Below are positions 16,314 to 25,275 of a stretch of DNA of 64,000 nucleotides, piece after piece; the stretch's first letter is position 1, and every line of letters starts with the position of its first letter. The notes below the pieces were generated by a model. It did no database searches, had not been told where the DNA came from, and was given only the letters and a program-made list of their open reading frames with translations. The position numbers and the translations under genes were made by a program. This DNA is from Chloroflexota bacterium (GTDB taxonomy: Bacteria; Chloroflexota; Anaerolineae; JAAEKA01): contig JAYELL010000097.1 in NCBI GenBank assembly GCA_034717495.1, positions 1 through 64,000 on the forward strand, read 5' to 3'.

Positions 16314-18488
16314 TCAATCTTTCTCAGTGCGTTGCTGGCGCCTGCGCCGGCTGGCCCGCCGCGAACGCGCGCCAATCTGGTTTTTCGCTTCGCTGCCATT
16401 TGACGATGGCACGATGACCCGTTGGGCCATTGCCTCGTTCAGGATCGGATCGAGATGTGGGTGTGAATCTTTTACATGGGGCAGGTAGAGAGCAGCTACA
16501 AACTCATCCTGAAATGCAGGATCGGTCGCAGTTTGAATATGCTCGATAGTCTCAGCCAGCTGAGCTGCTTCAAGCCGCGCTGCCCTGTCCAGCAACAGGA
16601 TCAAGGCACCGTCGCCGGCAGCATTTCCCACCGCTGTCACCTGTTGGAGATCGCAATCGGGTATCAAGCCCAGGACCATCGCGTGCTCTGGGCTGATGTA
16701 GGAGCCAAAGGCCCCTGCCAGCACAATACGGTCCACCTCCCGGACGCCGTAATGTTGCATGAGCAGTTTGGCACCGGCATACAGGGCTGCCTTGGCCAGT
16801 TGAATAGCCCGAACATCGTCGGCATGGATGACGATCTCACGCCCTGTGCTGGTCTCGTGAGCCCAGGCCAGCACAAAATAGGATTTCAGACCATCCTTTT
16901 TCAGCCGGGAGGTGGGCGCCTCTGCGACGAATCGCCCCGAGGGATCGATCAGTCCCGCCAGGAAAAGCTCGGCAACCCCTTCGATGGTCCCGCTGCCGCA
17001 GATTCCCGCCGGCAGGATCACCCCCTGCAGGGACGCGCCCTGCCGCCTGGCCGATAGATCAATCGCTTCAGGCCTTTGTCCGTCACCGGCTGGATTATCA
17101 CCCGATTCGATCCAGTCCTCCCGGCCAATAACCTTGAAGCGCACCCCCAACGTTGCAGGGTCGATCCGCACGCGTTCGATGGCACCTGGTGCAGCCCGCA
17201 TACCATGGCGAATCTGGGCGCCTTCAAAGGCGGGGCCCGTCGGCGACGAGGCCGACAGCATGCGGTCCCGGTTACCCAGGACGATCTCGCCATTGGTTCC
17301 CACATCGATCAACAGGGTAATATCCCGGCGCTCGTAGGGCTTCTCTGCAATGATTGCCGCCACATTGTCTGCACCCACATAGCCTGCTTCGATGGGAGGC
17401 ACGTGAACATAGGCGCCCCGATTCACCACCAGTCCCAAGTCCCGGGCCTTGATATCCAGCGCTACCTTGATCGCAGGCGCAAAGGGAGACCCGCCCAACT
17501 CCTCGGGGCTGATGCCGAGAAAGATGTGGTGCATGACGGTATTGCCCACGACCACCATGTCGACCACGTCGGCCGCAACGATGTCGGCGGAAGCCGTCGC
17601 GTCTGCCACAAGACCGCTGAGAGCATCCACCACGGCCCGATTCAGCCGATCCAATCCATCGCCATGCTCCATGACGAAGGAAATCCGTGACATCAGGTCC
17701 TCGCCGAAGCTGATCTGGGGATTCATGGCGCTTTCGGTGGCCAGGACCTGACCCGAGCGCAGTTCGGTCAGATGGGCGACCAGCGTGGTCGTGCCCACAT
17801 CGACAGCGACACCATAAGCCTGTTCATGATAACCGGATTGAACCCGGATCACCTCTTTTTCCTGCCAGACCGTGGCGGTTACCTTGCCCCTCCCTTTGCG
17901 AAGGGCAGGCTGGATCGTGGCAAGAACCACGGAATCGAACCTCAGCCCCTCCAGATCAAAGCGCTCTTCCAGTTCATCCCGCAAGCGCGCCCAGTCACTT
18001 CGTTCATCCTCCAGGCTGGCCGGGGGCAGTTCGACATAGCACAGCCGGATGGTCGGATTGACCTCAATAGCGCGCTCGGTGACATCCTTACGCACAACCT
18101 GTTTGTGGGCCCGGCTGGATTCGGGCACGGTCACGACAAGATCACCCTCAACCAGCGCTGCGCAACTGAGACGGCATCCGGGTTTGAGACCCTTGCGTTC
18201 GTGGTAATCCCGTTCCCGTTCCGATTCAGCACTCACATGATCGGGGGAAGAACGAATGTCGTAGCGGGCAAAACTGCCCTCTTCGATCTGCACCTGGCAT
18301 TTACCACAGGTCTGGCGTCCACCACAGATAGACTCGATCTCGACGCCTGCCTGGCGCGCGGCAACCAGCAACGACGTACCGGCGGTCACTTCCTCCCGCC
18401 GGCCGGCAGGCTGGAACACCACTCGAAATGTTTTTTGCTCAAGGTTTTTTTGTGACACCTGAATACCTTCGGCAGAATGACTTCCCAT
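16314..18488 (-). CDS. RACo/RamA-like corrinoid reductive activator (2Fe-2S ferredoxin + ASKHA ATPase)
   Basis: 724 residues. The N-terminal ferredoxin domain has C55, C61, C64 (SICGGRQTCGKC) and C105/C109 as [2Fe-2S] ligands. A linker is followed by an ASKHA-type domain (GVAVDVGTTTLVAHL near 225, LIDVGTNGEIVLG, LAGAFGSYI) of the DUF4445/RACo family. These proteins use ATP to return inactive Co(II) corrinoids to Co(I). Here it would serve the corrinoid protein encoded 6 bp downstream and replace the reactivation domain missing from the split MetH. The C-terminus (GARSRRASRRRRQQR) is strongly basic. Confidence 0.93.
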   Translation of the reverse strand: MGSHSAEGIQVSQKNLEQKTFRVVFQPAGRREEVTAGTSLLVAARQAGVEIESICGGRQTCGKCQVQIEEGSFARYDIRSSPDHVSAESERERDYHERKGLKPGCRLSCAALVEGDLVVTVPESSRAHKQVVRKDVTERAIEVNPTIRLCYVELPPASLEDERSDWARLRDELEERFDLEGLRFDSVVLATIQPALRKGRGKVTATVWQEKEVIRVQSGYHEQAYGVAVDVGTTTLVAHLTELRSGQVLATESAMNPQISFGEDLMSRISFVMEHGDGLDRLNRAVVDALSGLVADATASADIVAADVVDMVVVGNTVMHHIFLGISPEELGGSPFAPAIKVALDIKARDLGLVVNRGAYVHVPPIEAGYVGADNVAAIIAEKPYERRDITLLIDVGTNGEIVLGNRDRMLSASSPTGPAFEGAQIRHGMRAAPGAIERVRIDPATLGVRFKVIGREDWIESGDNPAGDGQRPEAIDLSARRQGASLQGVILPAGICGSGTIEGVAELFLAGLIDPSGRFVAEAPTSRLKKDGLKSYFVLAWAHETSTGREIVIHADDVRAIQLAKAALYAGAKLLMQHYGVREVDRIVLAGAFGSYISPEHAMVLGLIPDCDLQQVTAVGNAAGDGALILLLDRAARLEAAQLAETIEHIQTATDPAFQDEFVAALYLPHVKDSHPHLDPILNEAMAQRVIVPSSNGSEAKNQIGARSRRASRRRRQQRTEKD

Positions 18489-18820
18489 GATTTACTCACC
18501 GGAGTTACGCACTTAAGCGGAAAATACGGGTCAAATGCCGCCCTTCGACAAGCTCAGGATGTCATTTGACCCGTTCGCGCAGTTCAACACACATGCTGAT
18601 CCGGCACAACCAAAACATTGTATCAGCCGCTCCAGGGGCTGTCAAATCTCTCTGCGAATTGCAACGGCGCTGCGACTGCTCGAAACATATGCCACAAACG
18701 GCCCCGGAATCCGTTTAACCAAGAGGGGAGTTACACCGTTTCCTGCTGTCGAAGTACAGGCTTAATCCCCGAACCGTTCCCTCGGCATGAAACCCTGGAC
18801 ATCACCTGCTGGAGGTTGCC
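18489..18820. other. 332-bp intergenic region with a long hairpin
   Basis: Lies between the divergent corrinoid operon and the RHS gene. GGGTCAAATG (18528-18537) and CATTTGACCC (18563-18572) are perfect 10-bp inverted repeats around a loop with CCTTCGACAAGCTCAGG, a phrase I recognise as common in intergenic repeats of environmental genomes. The rest (18573-18805) shows no gene. A GGAGG ribosome site precedes the RHS ATG. Confidence 0.6.
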
Positions 18821-21800
18821 ATGATCGTTCGAAAACACCGGCTCAACCTGATCCTTACGTTGCTCATCATCGCATCACTGCTCAGTACATCCCTCAGTCT
18901 GGCCGCCCCCGCAGGTGAAACAGCGTCCGCACCGCTGCCGGAACCTGTTTCCAGTCCCCCACCAGGAAGAAATGGGCTCGGGCTGGGCCGCGCAGAAAAT
19001 GGCAACCCGGCCGATATCCCGGTCCAGATGGTGGACGGTGTCAACGTCACCAACGGCAATCTCCTGATCGGCGACATTCACTTCCAGTTCAACGGTCAGG
19101 GACCCACCTTTGCGCTGCAGCCGGTTTACAACAGCCAGGCCGATCCCGACCTCTCGCTCTACACGCCATTGGGGCGCAAGTGGACCCACAATCTCAACGA
19201 TTATATTACTTTTGGTCCGGAAGGCGACCTGGCGCTGCACAAGGGCGACGGTGAGGTAATCAGCTATCCCCTCACCTGCCGGCAGGATGTGAATCGCTCT
19301 CGTGGCCAGATCGATGTGATCGATATTCAGTTGACAGCCGAACACTGGAATACCGCCCTCGGCGATCCTGGCTTCGAGGCCATCTACGATGTCGAGCCTC
19401 CGCCCGCCGGCGATGGCCAGGTGAACATCCGGGATATCCAGGTGGTGGCTGCGGCTTTCAACAGCTACTGCTACCAGGTTGATCCAGCCTACTGGCTGTG
19501 GGAGGGACCGCCGGCCGATGCCATCTACAGCGAGATCGTTGCGCTGCCCAGCGGCGATTTTGAACTTCACACCCGCGAGGGCCTGGTCAAGACCTTCTTC
19601 TCCCCGTTGATCCCAGATCCGATTGCAGGCAAACTGCAGAGCGTTCTCGACCGCAACGGCAGCGGTTATGTGCTCAATTACGCTCCAGACGGCCTTCTGA
19701 TGGACGCCGGTGATACCAGCGGCAACACGTTGCAATTCTCCTACGATATGACCGTCTGCCCCATGCCGGTGATCGAGCAAGTCTCCGACCACACCGGACG
19801 CGAGGTAAACTATCTCTATGACAACAGCTCCTGCGACCTTATTTCCGTGAGCCGATACGGCGTACCCTGGCGAGACTATGCCTACCAATTTGGTACCAGC
19901 CTGTTGATGCAACAAGCCGACGCGATGGGTGCGACGACCGAATACGACTACGACGCGGACTCCCGTCTGATGACTCTGCGTCTTCCCGACACATCTCACC
20001 CCCAGGCCTACGGCTATCCGGGGCCGGGAATCACCCATGTCATGGATGCCATCGGCAGGCTGACGGAGTACCACTACAGCCCCATGAGCAAGATCCAGCA
20101 GATCGTCCAGGCTGCCACCGGTCACACTATCGCCTATGTCTACGATGGCCGCGGCAACCTGGCCCACCTGGGTGGTCCCGACGGCAACGACTACGGCTAC
20201 GACGAACGAGGCAACCTGCTGCGCATCGAATCGGCCCACCCCGATCCGGCTGATCCAACCCGGCTGGAGACGCTTTTCACCTACGACGCCTGCAACCAGG
20301 TGCGAACTACCACCGATGCCATGGGCCGCACCACTGAGAATGTCTACGATCCGGCAACCTGTCACCTGGAAACCATGATCGATCCCATGGGCCACGCTAC
20401 CCAGTTCGTCAACAACAGCCAGGGCCAGCCCGTGGAGATCACTGACGCCGCAGGTCGCGTGACCACCAACGTCTACGATCCTAACGGCAACCTGATCCAG
20501 ACCGAGGATAATGCTGGCAACATCACCCACATGGGCTACGATCTCCTGAACCGCAGGATCGAGGAGACGGATGCCGCCGGACACCTGACCACTTTCCAAT
20601 ATGACGACTTCGACCGCCAGACCAGGATCATTGCGCCTCCCGGCCCGGGTCCCCGGGAGACGGTGATGGTCTATGACAACGTCGGCAACCTGGTGACTTC
20701 CGTCAATCCGGATGGAAATGCAACCGGCTACGGCTACGATGGCCGCGGCAACAAGCTCTCGGTTACCGACAGCCTGGGCAACGTCACCCGTTACGAATAC
20801 GACGATCCCGACCGGCTGATGCAAGTCACAGATCCAATGGGTCGCATCACCCGCATCGACTACGATGCCCTCAACCGTCCCATCACGGTGACCGCCAACA
20901 CGACGGCCCTCTTCCCACAGATTACCGAGCTGAGCTACGATGATCCAGGCCTGACCCGCCGCGTCACCAATGCCAACGGACACACGACGACCTTTGAACT
21001 CGACCGCGCCGGCCGCGTCCTGCGAGTCACCAACCCGGATGGCACAATTGCAACCCAGTACGAATACAACCTTGCAGGGGAAATGCTGTCCGTGGTGGAT
21101 GCCCTGGGCCGCATCGAATCTTCCGAGTACGACGATGCCGGACGCAAAATCACTGACACCGATGCGCGCAGCTTCACCACTGGCTACGAATACGACGCCG
21201 TGGGCAATGTCATCAGCGTGAGCAACGCCCGGGGCTACATTACCCAGGTCGAATACGATCACGGCAATCGAATCACCGCCGTGCACGACCCGCTGGGTGG
21301 CGTCACCCAGATGGACTACGATGAGTTGGGTAACCTGCTCGTCGTCACCGATCCCGACAGCAACGCTACCAACTTTGGCTACGACGAGACGAGCAACCTG
21401 ATCACCGTCACCAATCCATTGAACGAGATCACCCTGCTGGAGTACAGTGCTGCCGGCCAGCGGACAGCGCTTGAGTCCCCCGAGGGCCTGCGCATCGAGT
21501 TCGACCTGGATTCTCTCGGTCGCGTCCTCACAGAACGCAAACTGGGCAGCGATGGATTGCTGGCTGAGGTCAGTTTCCAATATGACGCGATGGGCAACCG
21601 TTTTGAGATGATCGACGCCAACGGATTCAACTGGAACTATGACTACGACGACTATGATCGGCTAATAGGCAGCACCGATCCCCTGGGCAACACCACCGGC
21701 TACGAGTATGACCCGCTGGGCAACCTGATGCACAAGAGTTTGCCCGACGGCACAGGTATCGCCTACAGCTACGACGACCTGAACCGCCTGGGACGCACCG

Positions 21801-24169
21801 ACTATGCTGATGGCAGCTACGTATCTCAGCTCTACGACGCCATGGGCAACGTGGAAAAGGTCGAGTCCTTTGCAGCAGGTGGCCTGCTGGAAGCCAGCAC
21901 AGACTTCGACTACAACGAACGCAACCAGGTAATCCAGGTTTCGGGTCTCATCTCTCCGACCCTCAGCTACGGTATCGATTACCACTACGACGAAGTTGGC
22001 AATCCCCACCACAAAGAGTATATCCTGCCCGACACCTCCGGGCCCATCATGGTCGAACAACTGTGGGATGAAAACAACCGCCTGGTGACCATCACCCGCA
22101 CAGAGGGACTTGCCACAGCGGTAGCGGAAAAGGACTACAGCCCGGCAGGCCAACTCGTCGGGTCCAAGTTCAGCAGCGAAGCCTCCCTCTCCGCCTTTTC
22201 CTCCTACGGTCGCGACCCCGCCGGCCGGCTCCAGTCCATTCAACACTGCTGGGACCTGGCCTGCAGCACCCTGTTTTCCCAATATGACTACAGCTACGAC
22301 CAGGATGGCAACCGCACGTCCGAATTGGTGACCAAAGACGGTCTCCAACACCAGATCGAATATGAATTCGATGGCCTGAACCGGCTGAGCGGCGAGAGGC
22401 GACTAGAGGCCCATCCGCCGGGATTGGTTTTTTACGACACGACTTACTCCTACGATCCGGTTGGCAACCGGATCAGCGAGACGGACGGCAACGACCTGAT
22501 CACCTATGTCCACAACGCGGCCGGCCAGATAGAATTGAAGGAGATTGCCGGCGCCCTGGATGACACCATCCTCTACATACATGACGACAACGGCAACCTG
22601 GTGCACCGGGAAAGCCTGATCTTGCCTCCTCCCGCGGGTGTCCTAGAGGATCTCGAATATGACGCGGAAGGGCGCCTGGTCTCCTATTGGGAACCGGCGG
22701 TCAGTACGCCGACGGTCTACACCTACGATGGCCTGGGCAACAAGATCTATGCGCGGGATGCTATCCTGGGAGATGGCAAGGCCTATCTCTACGACGGTCC
22801 CAACGTGGTCGCCGAGTACGCGGTCGATTCGCTGGGCATCCCTTCCCTGGAGAGCACCTACCTGTTTGGCCAGGAGATCGATGAAGCGCTGGCCCGCTTC
22901 GATCCGTCGATGTTGGAACCCAGTTTCTACCTTCGGGACGCGCTGGGCTCGACACGGCAGATCATCGATCCCTTCGGGGGTGTCTGGAACGACTACGAGT
23001 ACACCGCCTTTGGCGAACTTTTCGCTGAATCGGGCACGCTGCCCAACGACATCCTCTTCACAGGGCGATGGCGCGACCCGGCCAGCGACCTCTACGACTT
23101 CCGCACCCGCGTCTACGATCCCGACGACGGCCGTTTCCTGCAGAAGGATCCCATCTACGAAGGGCTCATCCTAGCCCCATGCGTTGCCTGCTGGCAGAAC
23201 CCACTGGAACTGTTTGAGGTGATGCCGCTCTACGGCTACGTCGGCAACAACCCGGCCACCTACACCGATCCCACCGGCGAGCAGTGGTGGTTCTGGCGTC
23301 CCTGGTGGTGGCTCAGCGGACCGGTCGACTACGTGCCCTATGCCTGGTGGGGCTGGTGGTACAGTCCCTGGGGCTGGGCTGGCCTGCGTTGGTGGTGGTG
23401 GCGCTGGTGGTGGCCCGCCAATCCCTTCTGGGGAGGTTGGTGGTGGTGGCAGTGGCGCTGGTGGTGGGGAGGTTGGTGGCTTCCCTACTGGGGCAACGCC
23501 TGGTGGCCATGGTGGTGGGGCGGCAACTGGTGGTGGTGGCCATGGTCGATCGGATGGGGCTGGTGGTGGTACCCATGGTGGTGGGGCGGCTGGTGGTGGC
23601 CCTGGTGGTGGTTCAACTGGCGCGGCTGGTGGCACTGGCACTGGTGGTGGCCGCTCAAGTGGGCCTGGTGGTGCGGTTGGTGGTGGCGCTGGTGGTGGCC
23701 CTGGTGGTGGGGCGGCCGGTGGTGGCCCTGGTTCTGGTCCAACTGGACCGGCTGGCGACTGGGCTTCTGGCTGGGGATGGTGGCCCTGGTGGGGCGGCCG
23801 TTGCGGGTGGCCATGGTGGCGTCCCTGGCGCCCCGGGTGGTGGGGCACATGGTGGTGGGGTCCCTGGTACGGCTGGACCGGTTGGTACCGTTGGCCCAGG
23901 TGGTGGGGTGGCTTCTGGTGGCCCTGGTGGCGACACTGTCGCTGGAGTCTTTGGCCCTGGTGGTGGGGCAACTGGTGGCTCTGGCGCCCCTGGTGGCGAC
24001 CCTGGCTGTGGCGTCTGTGGTGGCAGCCATGGTTCTTCCGATGGCCCAGCTGGCGCTGGTGGTGGGTGAACGGTGGTCGGAAAACAGCGGACCACGGACG
24101 GCTGACGGCGGTCAACGCTCGGCAGTCAGCGGTCCTCGGTCGGTAGAACTGCGTAACATCGATGACTAA
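18821..24169 (+). CDS. Secreted RHS/YD-repeat protein with dockerin-like segment and Trp-rich tail
   Basis: 1782 residues in the open frame. Signal peptide 1-29 (ILTLLIIASLLSTSLSLAAP). Residues about 153-218 hold two dockerin-like calcium loops (DVNRSRGQIDVIDIQLTAEHW; DGQVNIRDIQVVAAAF). Long YD-repeat arrays (GYDxxGN, YEYDxxGR) run from about 250 to 1340. The RHS core (YLRDALGSTRQI near 1370, ending YVGNNPATYTDPTGE near 1474-1487) would form the closed shell. Residues 1489-1650 contain 80 Trp. After that the open frame is Val/Leu-rich, because the Trp-coding phase moves by one frame near 23760. The real tail may therefore continue in the other frame to a stop at 24144. ATG follows GGAGG at 5 nt. 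No immunity-type gene follows; menC converges and overlaps by 4 bp. Confidence 0.88.
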   Translation: MIVRKHRLNLILTLLIIASLLSTSLSLAAPAGETASAPLPEPVSSPPPGRNGLGLGRAENGNPADIPVQMVDGVNVTNGNLLIGDIHFQFNGQGPTFALQPVYNSQADPDLSLYTPLGRKWTHNLNDYITFGPEGDLALHKGDGEVISYPLTCRQDVNRSRGQIDVIDIQLTAEHWNTALGDPGFEAIYDVEPPPAGDGQVNIRDIQVVAAAFNSYCYQVDPAYWLWEGPPADAIYSEIVALPSGDFELHTREGLVKTFFSPLIPDPIAGKLQSVLDRNGSGYVLNYAPDGLLMDAGDTSGNTLQFSYDMTVCPMPVIEQVSDHTGREVNYLYDNSSCDLISVSRYGVPWRDYAYQFGTSLLMQQADAMGATTEYDYDADSRLMTLRLPDTSHPQAYGYPGPGITHVMDAIGRLTEYHYSPMSKIQQIVQAATGHTIAYVYDGRGNLAHLGGPDGNDYGYDERGNLLRIESAHPDPADPTRLETLFTYDACNQVRTTTDAMGRTTENVYDPATCHLETMIDPMGHATQFVNNSQGQPVEITDAAGRVTTNVYDPNGNLIQTEDNAGNITHMGYDLLNRRIEETDAAGHLTTFQYDDFDRQTRIIAPPGPGPRETVMVYDNVGNLVTSVNPDGNATGYGYDGRGNKLSVTDSLGNVTRYEYDDPDRLMQVTDPMGRITRIDYDALNRPITVTANTTALFPQITELSYDDPGLTRRVTNANGHTTTFELDRAGRVLRVTNPDGTIATQYEYNLAGEMLSVVDALGRIESSEYDDAGRKITDTDARSFTTGYEYDAVGNVISVSNARGYITQVEYDHGNRITAVHDPLGGVTQMDYDELGNLLVVTDPDSNATNFGYDETSNLITVTNPLNEITLLEYSAAGQRTALESPEGLRIEFDLDSLGRVLTERKLGSDGLLAEVSFQYDAMGNRFEMIDANGFNWNYDYDDYDRLIGSTDPLGNTTGYEYDPLGNLMHKSLPDGTGIAYSYDDLNRLGRTDYADGSYVSQLYDAMGNVEKVESFAAGGLLEASTDFDYNERNQVIQVSGLISPTLSYGIDYHYDEVGNPHHKEYILPDTSGPIMVEQLWDENNRLVTITRTEGLATAVAEKDYSPAGQLVGSKFSSEASLSAFSSYGRDPAGRLQSIQHCWDLACSTLFSQYDYSYDQDGNRTSELVTKDGLQHQIEYEFDGLNRLSGERRLEAHPPGLVFYDTTYSYDPVGNRISETDGNDLITYVHNAAGQIELKEIAGALDDTILYIHDDNGNLVHRESLILPPPAGVLEDLEYDAEGRLVSYWEPAVSTPTVYTYDGLGNKIYARDAILGDGKAYLYDGPNVVAEYAVDSLGIPSLESTYLFGQEIDEALARFDPSMLEPSFYLRDALGSTRQIIDPFGGVWNDYEYTAFGELFAESGTLPNDILFTGRWRDPASDLYDFRTRVYDPDDGRFLQKDPIYEGLILAPCVACWQNPLELFEVMPLYGYVGNNPATYTDPTGEQWWFWRPWWWLSGPVDYVPYAWWGWWYSPWGWAGLRWWWWRWWWPANPFWGGWWWWQWRWWWGGWWLPYWGNAWWPWWWGGNWWWWPWSIGWGWWWYPWWWGGWWWPWWWFNWRGWWHWHWWWPLKWAWWCGWWWRWWWPWWWGGRWWPWFWSNWTGWRLGFWLGMVALVGRPLRVAMVASLAPRVVGHMVVGSLVRLDRLVPLAQVVGWLLVALVATLSLESLALVVGQLVALAPLVATLAVASVVAAMVLPMAQLALVVGERWSENSGPRTADGGQRSAVSGPRSVELRNIDD
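23285..24060 (+). repeat. TGG-rich low-complexity tract
   Basis: About 775 bp built from TGG-rich units such as TGGTGGCCCTGGTGGTGG. The three frames read Trp-rich, Gly-rich and Val/Leu-rich. From 23285 to about 23770 the Trp frame is the RHS frame; from 23760 on it is the next frame. In the Trp frame most other codons end in C (CCC, GGC, AAC, TAC, TTC, CAC), like the upstream RHS gene. In the Gly frame they end mostly in T. Confidence 0.9.
24083..24145. repeat. Short phrase repeat (GGACCACGGACGGCTGACGGCGGTC type)
   Basis: Degenerate repeats of CGGACC/CGGTC/GTCAGCGGTC words at the 3' end of the RHS ORF. They look like an intergenic repeat, implying that the true coding end may lie near 24069 or in another frame. 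Similar words occur near 25455-25470 and 52600-52630. Confidence 0.5.
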
Positions 24170-25275
24170 CATAATTCCAGGTGCCGCAGACGCAGCGCCT
24201 CAAGCCGCCTGACATCCACCGTGACCCCCAGTCCGGGCCCATCGGGCAGCGAGATGGTTGAGTCTCCGTTCAGTTCGAAGTTGGGTTCGGCAATATCCTC
24301 TTTGTAGTAGCGAGCCGAGGCAGAGATATCGCCCGGCAAGGTGAACGTGGGCAGGGTGGCCAGCGCAACGTTGGCCGCCCTGCCCACGTTTGTCTCCAGC
24401 ATTCCCCCGCACCAGACGGGCACGCCTCGCGCCAGGCACAGGTCGTGGATCTCGATGGCTGCGCTCAGGCCGCCAACCCTTCCCACCTTGATGTTGACGT
24501 TCCGGCAGGCGCCGAGATCCAACGCCCAGCGGGCGTGCATCGGTGAATGGATGCTTTCATCGAGACAGATGGCTGTCTCGATCTGCTGCTGGAGTAGGGC
24601 ATGATCGACGATATCATCGTGATGCAAAGGCTGCTCGATAAGCAGCAACTCGAACTCATCCAGAGCCCGCAGGGTTTCGATATCGTCGAGGGAGTAGGCA
24701 GAGTTGGCATCCACCTGAAGCAAGTAATCGGGCCAGCGCTCGCGCACAGCCCGCACCGGAACGATGTCCCACCCAGGTTTGATCTTCAGCTTTAGTCGCC
24801 GGTACCCCTCAGAAACAAACCCTGAAACCACCTCCAGAAGCTCCGGCACCGTTTCTTCGATACCCACGCTGACTCCCACCGGCACCCGATCGCGAACACT
24901 GCCGGGCAGCATCGTAACCAGAGGAAGGGAGTCGGCCGTTGCCAGCAGATCCCACGCGGCGTTCTCCATGGCCGAACGTGCCATGGGATGGCCTCGAACA
25001 GGCCTGAACCTGGCCACAACATCGCCAGGCGAGCGGATATCCTCGCCCAGGAGCATGGGCGCCAGGTAGTCCTCCATGACATGCCAGTTGGTATCGATGG
25101 TCTCGTAGGAGTACCAGGGGCCGCCAAAGGCCGCGCTTTCGCCCCAGCCGGTTGCTCCCTGGCTCTGCATGGAAACCAGGATACACAAGCGGGTCAGTTC
25201 CCTGCCGAAACTGGTTTCGAAGGGATGGGCCAGGGGTAGTTCAATGAGATGTAGCTGAATGCGTTCGATGATCAT
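24166..25275 (-). CDS. menC: o-Succinylbenzoate synthase / N-acylamino acid racemase family (enolase superfamily)
   Basis: 369 residues. The MLE-subgroup catalytic set is visible: KLKIKPG (KxK acid/base), metal ligands VDANSAYS, LIEQPL and LDESI, and the second Lys in NIKVGRVGG. The capping domain is at the N-terminus (SFGRELTRLCILVSM). The product is most like OSBS/NSAAR enzymes of the MenC2 type, which make o-succinylbenzoate for menaquinone or racemise N-acyl amino acids. The window has no other men genes, so the racemase role stays open. Confidence 0.85.
   Translation of the reverse strand: MIIERIQLHLIELPLAHPFETSFGRELTRLCILVSMQSQGATGWGESAAFGGPWYSYETIDTNWHVMEDYLAPMLLGEDIRSPGDVVARFRPVRGHPMARSAMENAAWDLLATADSLPLVTMLPGSVRDRVPVGVSVGIEETVPELLEVVSGFVSEGYRRLKLKIKPGWDIVPVRAVRERWPDYLLQVDANSAYSLDDIETLRALDEFELLLIEQPLHHDDIVDHALLQQQIETAICLDESIHSPMHARWALDLGACRNVNIKVGRVGGLSAAIEIHDLCLARGVPVWCGGMLETNVGRAANVALATLPTFTLPGDISASARYYKEDIAEPNFELNGDSTISLPDGPGLGVTVDVRRLEALRLRHLELC

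Follow-up and report, generated by a model that had tools for sequence, protein, structure and literature searches.

The window analysed here, a stretch of 64,000 nucleotides, carries on its forward strand an open reading frame (18821-24169) that encodes an RHS protein of 1782 residues. This gene is flanked by the gene of a RACo-type corrinoid activator (16314-18488, reverse strand), recognised by its RACo domains, and by a convergent menC-like gene of the enolase superfamily (24166-25275, reverse strand), assigned on the basis of its MR_MLE domains and of synteny. The same position between these two genes, on the strand opposite to both, is found in the genome of Anaerolineae clx_CAG2 (G005). 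In two other genomes of the same family (G002 and G003), the RACo and menC-like genes are directly adjacent, which indicates a fixed site that the RHS gene may or may not occupy. The occupied site of the window (16314-25275) can be set beside the empty site of two relatives (L049 and L050). In Anaerolineae SSC4 (G034), the RHS gene is located elsewhere, and the menC-like gene lies at a different position of the genome. A search for terminal repeats of the kind that bound mobile elements yielded, around the RHS gene, only an imperfect inverted pair of 14 nt, taken as a chance occurrence. A 19-nt inverted repeat with a CTTCGACAAGCTCAGG-like centre is present between the RACo gene and the RHS start (18526-18574).

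The RHS protein belongs to a known kind, the RHS/YD-repeat proteins. Its main part (18821-23275, forward strand), delimited by means of Pfam, TIGR01643 and TIGR03696, comprises a signal peptide, a YD-repeat shell and an Rhs-associated core. The signal peptide, covering approximately residues 1-30 (RKHR...LILTLLIIASLL...SLAAP), was recognised by reading the sequence. Tandem YD/RHS repeats are evident from the match of Pfam RHS_repeat to 10 stretches (E = 2.3e-94) and are accompanied by a match to YD_repeat_2x (E = 1.2e-78); the match to the YD-shell profile falls below the Pfam cut-off. The shell ends in Rhs_assc_core (TIGR03696, residues 1394-1486), with 63.5 bits for a cut-off of 32.5, and the core terminates in NPATYTDPTG. 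In the N-terminal part, a dockerin-I-like pair of EF-hands (19277-19476, forward strand, residues 153-219) matches PF00404 weakly, at E = 4.5e-4 and 20.8 bits, slightly below the Pfam cut-off of 22.9. The end of the core (23147-23275) contains two DP elements 36 residues apart and two cysteines (PCVACWQNPLEL), and is near-identical in clx_CAG2. Tryptophan is scarce in the core, with 12 of 1482 residues.

Directly behind Rhs_assc_core, and in frame with it, begins a domain of a very different composition. The original prediction had placed there a tail with 80 Trp among the 162 residues 1489-1650, in which Arg, Gly and Pro are the main partners of Trp, and position, count and partners all proved exact. 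This first part of the Trp-rich domain occupies 23276-23770 on the forward strand (80 Trp in 165 codons). The tract had been given the limits 23285-23770; it is indeed Trp-rich over this length, but position 23770 is not its end. Past approximately 23770, the density of Trp in the RHS frame falls to about zero and rises immediately in the +1 phase, where a second part, with 99 codons of which 44 are Trp, occupies 23772-24068 on the forward strand. The whole domain thus amounts to about 264 codons and 124 Trp with one frame break, situated in a zone (23750-23785, forward strand) where a repeat-rich difference in length from the relatives is observed. Owing to this change of phase, the annotated C-terminus past approximately residue 1650 represents the same domain read in the wrong frame. 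About 130 residues at the end of the listed frame correspond to the second half of the domain read out of frame and then to an interspersed genomic repeat, so that the last segment (24069-24169, forward strand) lies outside the conserved domain. Over 20 related copies of this G/C-rich repeat (24075-24160), which the end of the RHS frame enters, are scattered through the genome.

The tail is built of runs of one to four Trp interrupted by Pro, Gly and Arg, and its net charge is positive, with 9-15 Arg or Lys against 0-2 Asp or Glu per segment. A regular short repeat unit was considered and rejected, the autocorrelation of Trp being weak, with a faint signal at 16-17 residues only.

A search of 100 related genomes returned two RHS proteins matching through the tail, those of clx_CAG2 and SSC4, in which the same tail is present behind the same RHS core. 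These genomes were obtained by different sequencing approaches. Anaerolineae clx_CAG2 is a single-cell co-assembly, made from four sorted cells of a winery wastewater plant, and its tail of 196 residues (83 Trp, 42%) is an unbroken open frame from the core. Anaerolineae SSC4 stems from activated-sludge enrichments and was assembled from MinION long reads; Trp accounts for 152 of the 284 residues of its tail (54%). Its RHS gene contains several frame breaks, one of them directly after DPTGEQWWFWHP, so that the core is continued in the Gly frame; according to the paper describing this genome, the MinION data required frame-shift correction. At least one frame break is found somewhere in each of the three copies, and the one of clx_CAG2 falls in a C-run shortly after the signal peptide (L034, 3758-3960). 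Programmed frameshifting at the break of the window was rejected, the Trp frame being continuous in clx_CAG2 and SSC4 remaining in a single Trp frame across the corresponding region. In SSC4, a segment that resembles GEVED, presumably a domain of extracellular type, follows the tail one frame off (L035, 9075-9750; 41% identical to a protein of G002 in a stretch of 64 residues). Its fusion to the tail is probable but unproven, and the tail may accordingly be an internal linker in this organism.

The distribution of the tail is narrow. A loose first-pass search, from which diverged copies may escape, found three carriers among 396 Anaerolineae genomes and no additional one in a 400-genome sample of the phylum. 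The three carriers belong to two GTDB-level families and differ in the length of their tail. Most relatives lack the RHS gene, among them two congeners of clx_CAG2 whose locus is intact. A strict 39-base pattern of the Trp tract had no match in the 396 genomes of the class, this pattern being too strict, as it is absent from the window too. The tail pattern had no match in plasmids, and a scan of viral contigs gave 600 pattern matches without a confirmed relative. Comparison of the tail with Pfam, PADLOC and the sequences of the PDB returned no match, although the score filters may penalise a sequence so biased, and the literature searched makes no mention of an RHS tail rich in Trp.

The choice of the Trp frame as the coding frame had been argued from codon use, and the figures agree: 53 of the 79 codons other than Trp end in C, as upstream, while 90 of 157 codons end in T in the Gly frame. 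The pattern of substitutions reveals purifying selection in the Trp frame only. In a codon-by-codon alignment of the window with SSC4 (NG86 method), dN/dS is 0.18 for part 1 and 0.24 for part 2 in the Trp frame, against 1.33 and 1.02 (part 1) and 0.88 and 2.93 (part 2) in the other two frames. For the window and clx_CAG2, dN/dS is 0.20 and 0.24 in the tail, compared with 0.34 in the RHS core, and over all window pairs the values range from 0.18 to 0.24 in the Trp frame as opposed to 0.75-2.9 in the others. At the tail end of SSC4 and clx_CAG2, the corresponding figures are 0.35 versus 0.67 and 1.55. These values are rough, the sequences being few and dS being near saturation in the clx_CAG2 pairs, but the frames differ widely. 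The substitutions between the window and SSC4 alter 56 codons, whereas random redistribution of the same substitutions alters 87 (sd 4), creates a mean of 5.4 stops and leaves the frame free of stops in 0.1% of trials. The two tails are 78% identical, whereas shuffling at the same composition would give 30%; identity extends to 45 of the 79 columns other than Trp-Trp, so that the residues between the tryptophans are also kept. Identity with clx_CAG2 is 74% at the start of the tail, 57% in the core and 60% at the tail end.

These comparisons show that the tail is preserved by natural selection in the Trp frame. The original prediction had named, as evidence to the contrary, homologous RHS proteins continuing in the Gly frame under purifying selection. 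Such a continuation is literally present in SSC4, but in a MinION record with frame breaks elsewhere in the gene, and no selection is seen in the Gly frame. As the Trp reading is selected on both sides of the break in the window, this break is either recent or an assembly error.

Clues to a function come from the physical properties of the tail. The interfacial hydropathy of part 1 is strongly favourable, at about -136. Helix insertion has its minimum at +7 to +13 for 19-residue stretches of the tail, versus -1.6 for the signal peptide, and no transmembrane-helix-like stretch was detected by this scoring. Binding to headgroups, adhesion to surfaces or self-association is consequently likelier than pores built of helices. 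Two AlphaFold2 runs, with mean pLDDT of 43 and 35, did not yield a model that could be used.

From the sequence evidence, a mode of action can be proposed in which the RHS protein would leave the cell by Sec and the YD-repeat shell would hold or present the tail. Its many Trp, together with Arg, would then adsorb to the headgroup regions of lipids; aromatic or glycan surfaces may be the targets instead, and neither enzymatic activity nor transmembrane helices would be involved. Such a tail could plausibly be chaperoned by the shell, because that of Tse5 carries a membrane-inserting domain (PMC10684867). Membrane or surface binding by the tail, as originally suggested, is a reasonable expectation, and our best guess is that the tail may serve as a secreted, shell-borne, cationic aromatic module for membrane interfaces or other surfaces. 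The odds are about even that the locus encodes a secreted RHS/YD-repeat protein whose conserved, low-complexity Trp-rich C-terminal domain would act by interfacial binding. The broader proposition, a new class of domains of 200-280 residues, about half Trp, selected as an extracellular interfacial or self-assembling aromatic module on a YD shell and lacking any known counterpart, is likewise about as likely as not.

The tail might alternatively be a module of surface adhesion or matrix formation, which would attach the protein to polysaccharide, to flocs of sludge or to neighbouring cells by stacking of aromatic residues, the RHS shell serving as a scaffold in the manner of teneurins or surface-anchored YD-repeat proteins. 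Trp is known to stack on sugars in carbohydrate-binding modules, and the signal peptide, the dockerin-like segment, the wastewater origin of two of the three hosts, the absence of an immunity gene and the further segment behind the tail in SSC4 all agree with such a role. The tail nevertheless bears no similarity to any binding module in Pfam or the PDB, and a content of 42-54% Trp is far above the use of this residue in sugar-binding sites, which leaves adhesion at roughly one chance in four. Slightly less probable is a polymorphic toxin, in which the tail would be a C-terminal effector enclosed in the RHS shell and released against the membranes of competitors in the manner of Tse5-CT. The position directly behind the Rhs core, the cationic and Trp-rich make-up and the optional insertion of the gene between two conserved genes are in keeping with a toxin, and Tse5 exemplifies a membrane-inserting toxin carried by such a shell (PMC10684867). 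The idea of a variable toxin cassette was not supported, however. The same tail occurs in all three members (only three were seen), without variation of the C-terminal domain, and it is conserved, at least as strongly as the core, rather than exchanged. No immunity gene lies downstream, the convergent menC-like gene coming next in both the window and clx_CAG2, and PADLOC is silent. The aspartyl autoprotease motif of RHS toxins, DPxGx18DPxG (PMC10684867), is replaced by DPIY-x36-DPTG. The boundary motif PxxxxDPxGL is represented by PATYTDPTG, followed by E where L is expected. Conservation of the tail and the lack of an immunity gene and of the canonical motif make the toxin reading weak, even if the absence of DPxGx18DPxG is no peculiarity of the present protein, as DP spacings are likewise long, at about 33, in several other RHS proteins of Anaerolineae.

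A quite different view is that the tail is a neutral, non-functional extension, formed by slippage of TGG-rich DNA that happened to be open after the core. Its internal repeats, its change of length among relatives and the frame break of the window copy are features expected of such DNA, yet perfect tandem repeats are few, the aligned residues other than Trp are conserved and dN/dS is about 0.2 in the Trp frame only, so that this origin is very improbable. A recent pseudogene in the window strain, with the break at 23750-23785 removing the second half of the tail, is compatible with the preferred interfacial module and is a real though minority possibility. Past selection is visible on either side of the break, each in its own Trp frame, and the break falls in repeat-rich DNA; misassembly or a consensus error in a GC-rich repeat would explain it equally, however, and the tail of clx_CAG2 is unbroken.

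The sequence comparisons indicate that the tail is real, conserved, very unusual and without a catalogued relative in the databases searched. No amino acid is rarer or costlier than tryptophan; we know of no other natural domain of such length that is half Trp, and none was found in the literature searched. Selection on the tail implies that a half-Trp polymer can be made, exported and used. The tail offers a testable case of how extreme aromatic sequences pass Sec, stay soluble and act at interfaces, and adds a kind of C-terminal domain unlike toxins to the RHS proteins.

Among known systems, teneurins and bacterial surface YD-repeat proteins share the extracellular YD-repeat shell, but are not known to contain a Trp-rich domain. 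The Trp-rich antimicrobial peptides indolicidin and tritrpticin, which are processed host peptides of 13 residues, resemble the tail in being cationic and in having Trp, Arg and Pro as main residues; the tail, in contrast, is 196-284 residues long and part of a large bacterial RHS protein. Rhs1, RhsA and Tse5 have in common with the present protein a YD-repeat shell, an Rhs-associated core and an unrelated domain right after the DPxG element. They differ by a T6SS N-terminus in place of the Sec signal peptide, and the tail described here is conserved, half Trp and accompanied neither by an immunity gene nor by DPxGx18DPxG. Tse5-CT is described as an integral-membrane, pore-forming fragment of an RHS toxin (PMC10684867). 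Like Tse5-CT, the Trp tail would be a hydrophobic, membrane-seeking cargo behind an RHS shell, but it is dominated by interfacial Trp with Pro and Gly breaks.
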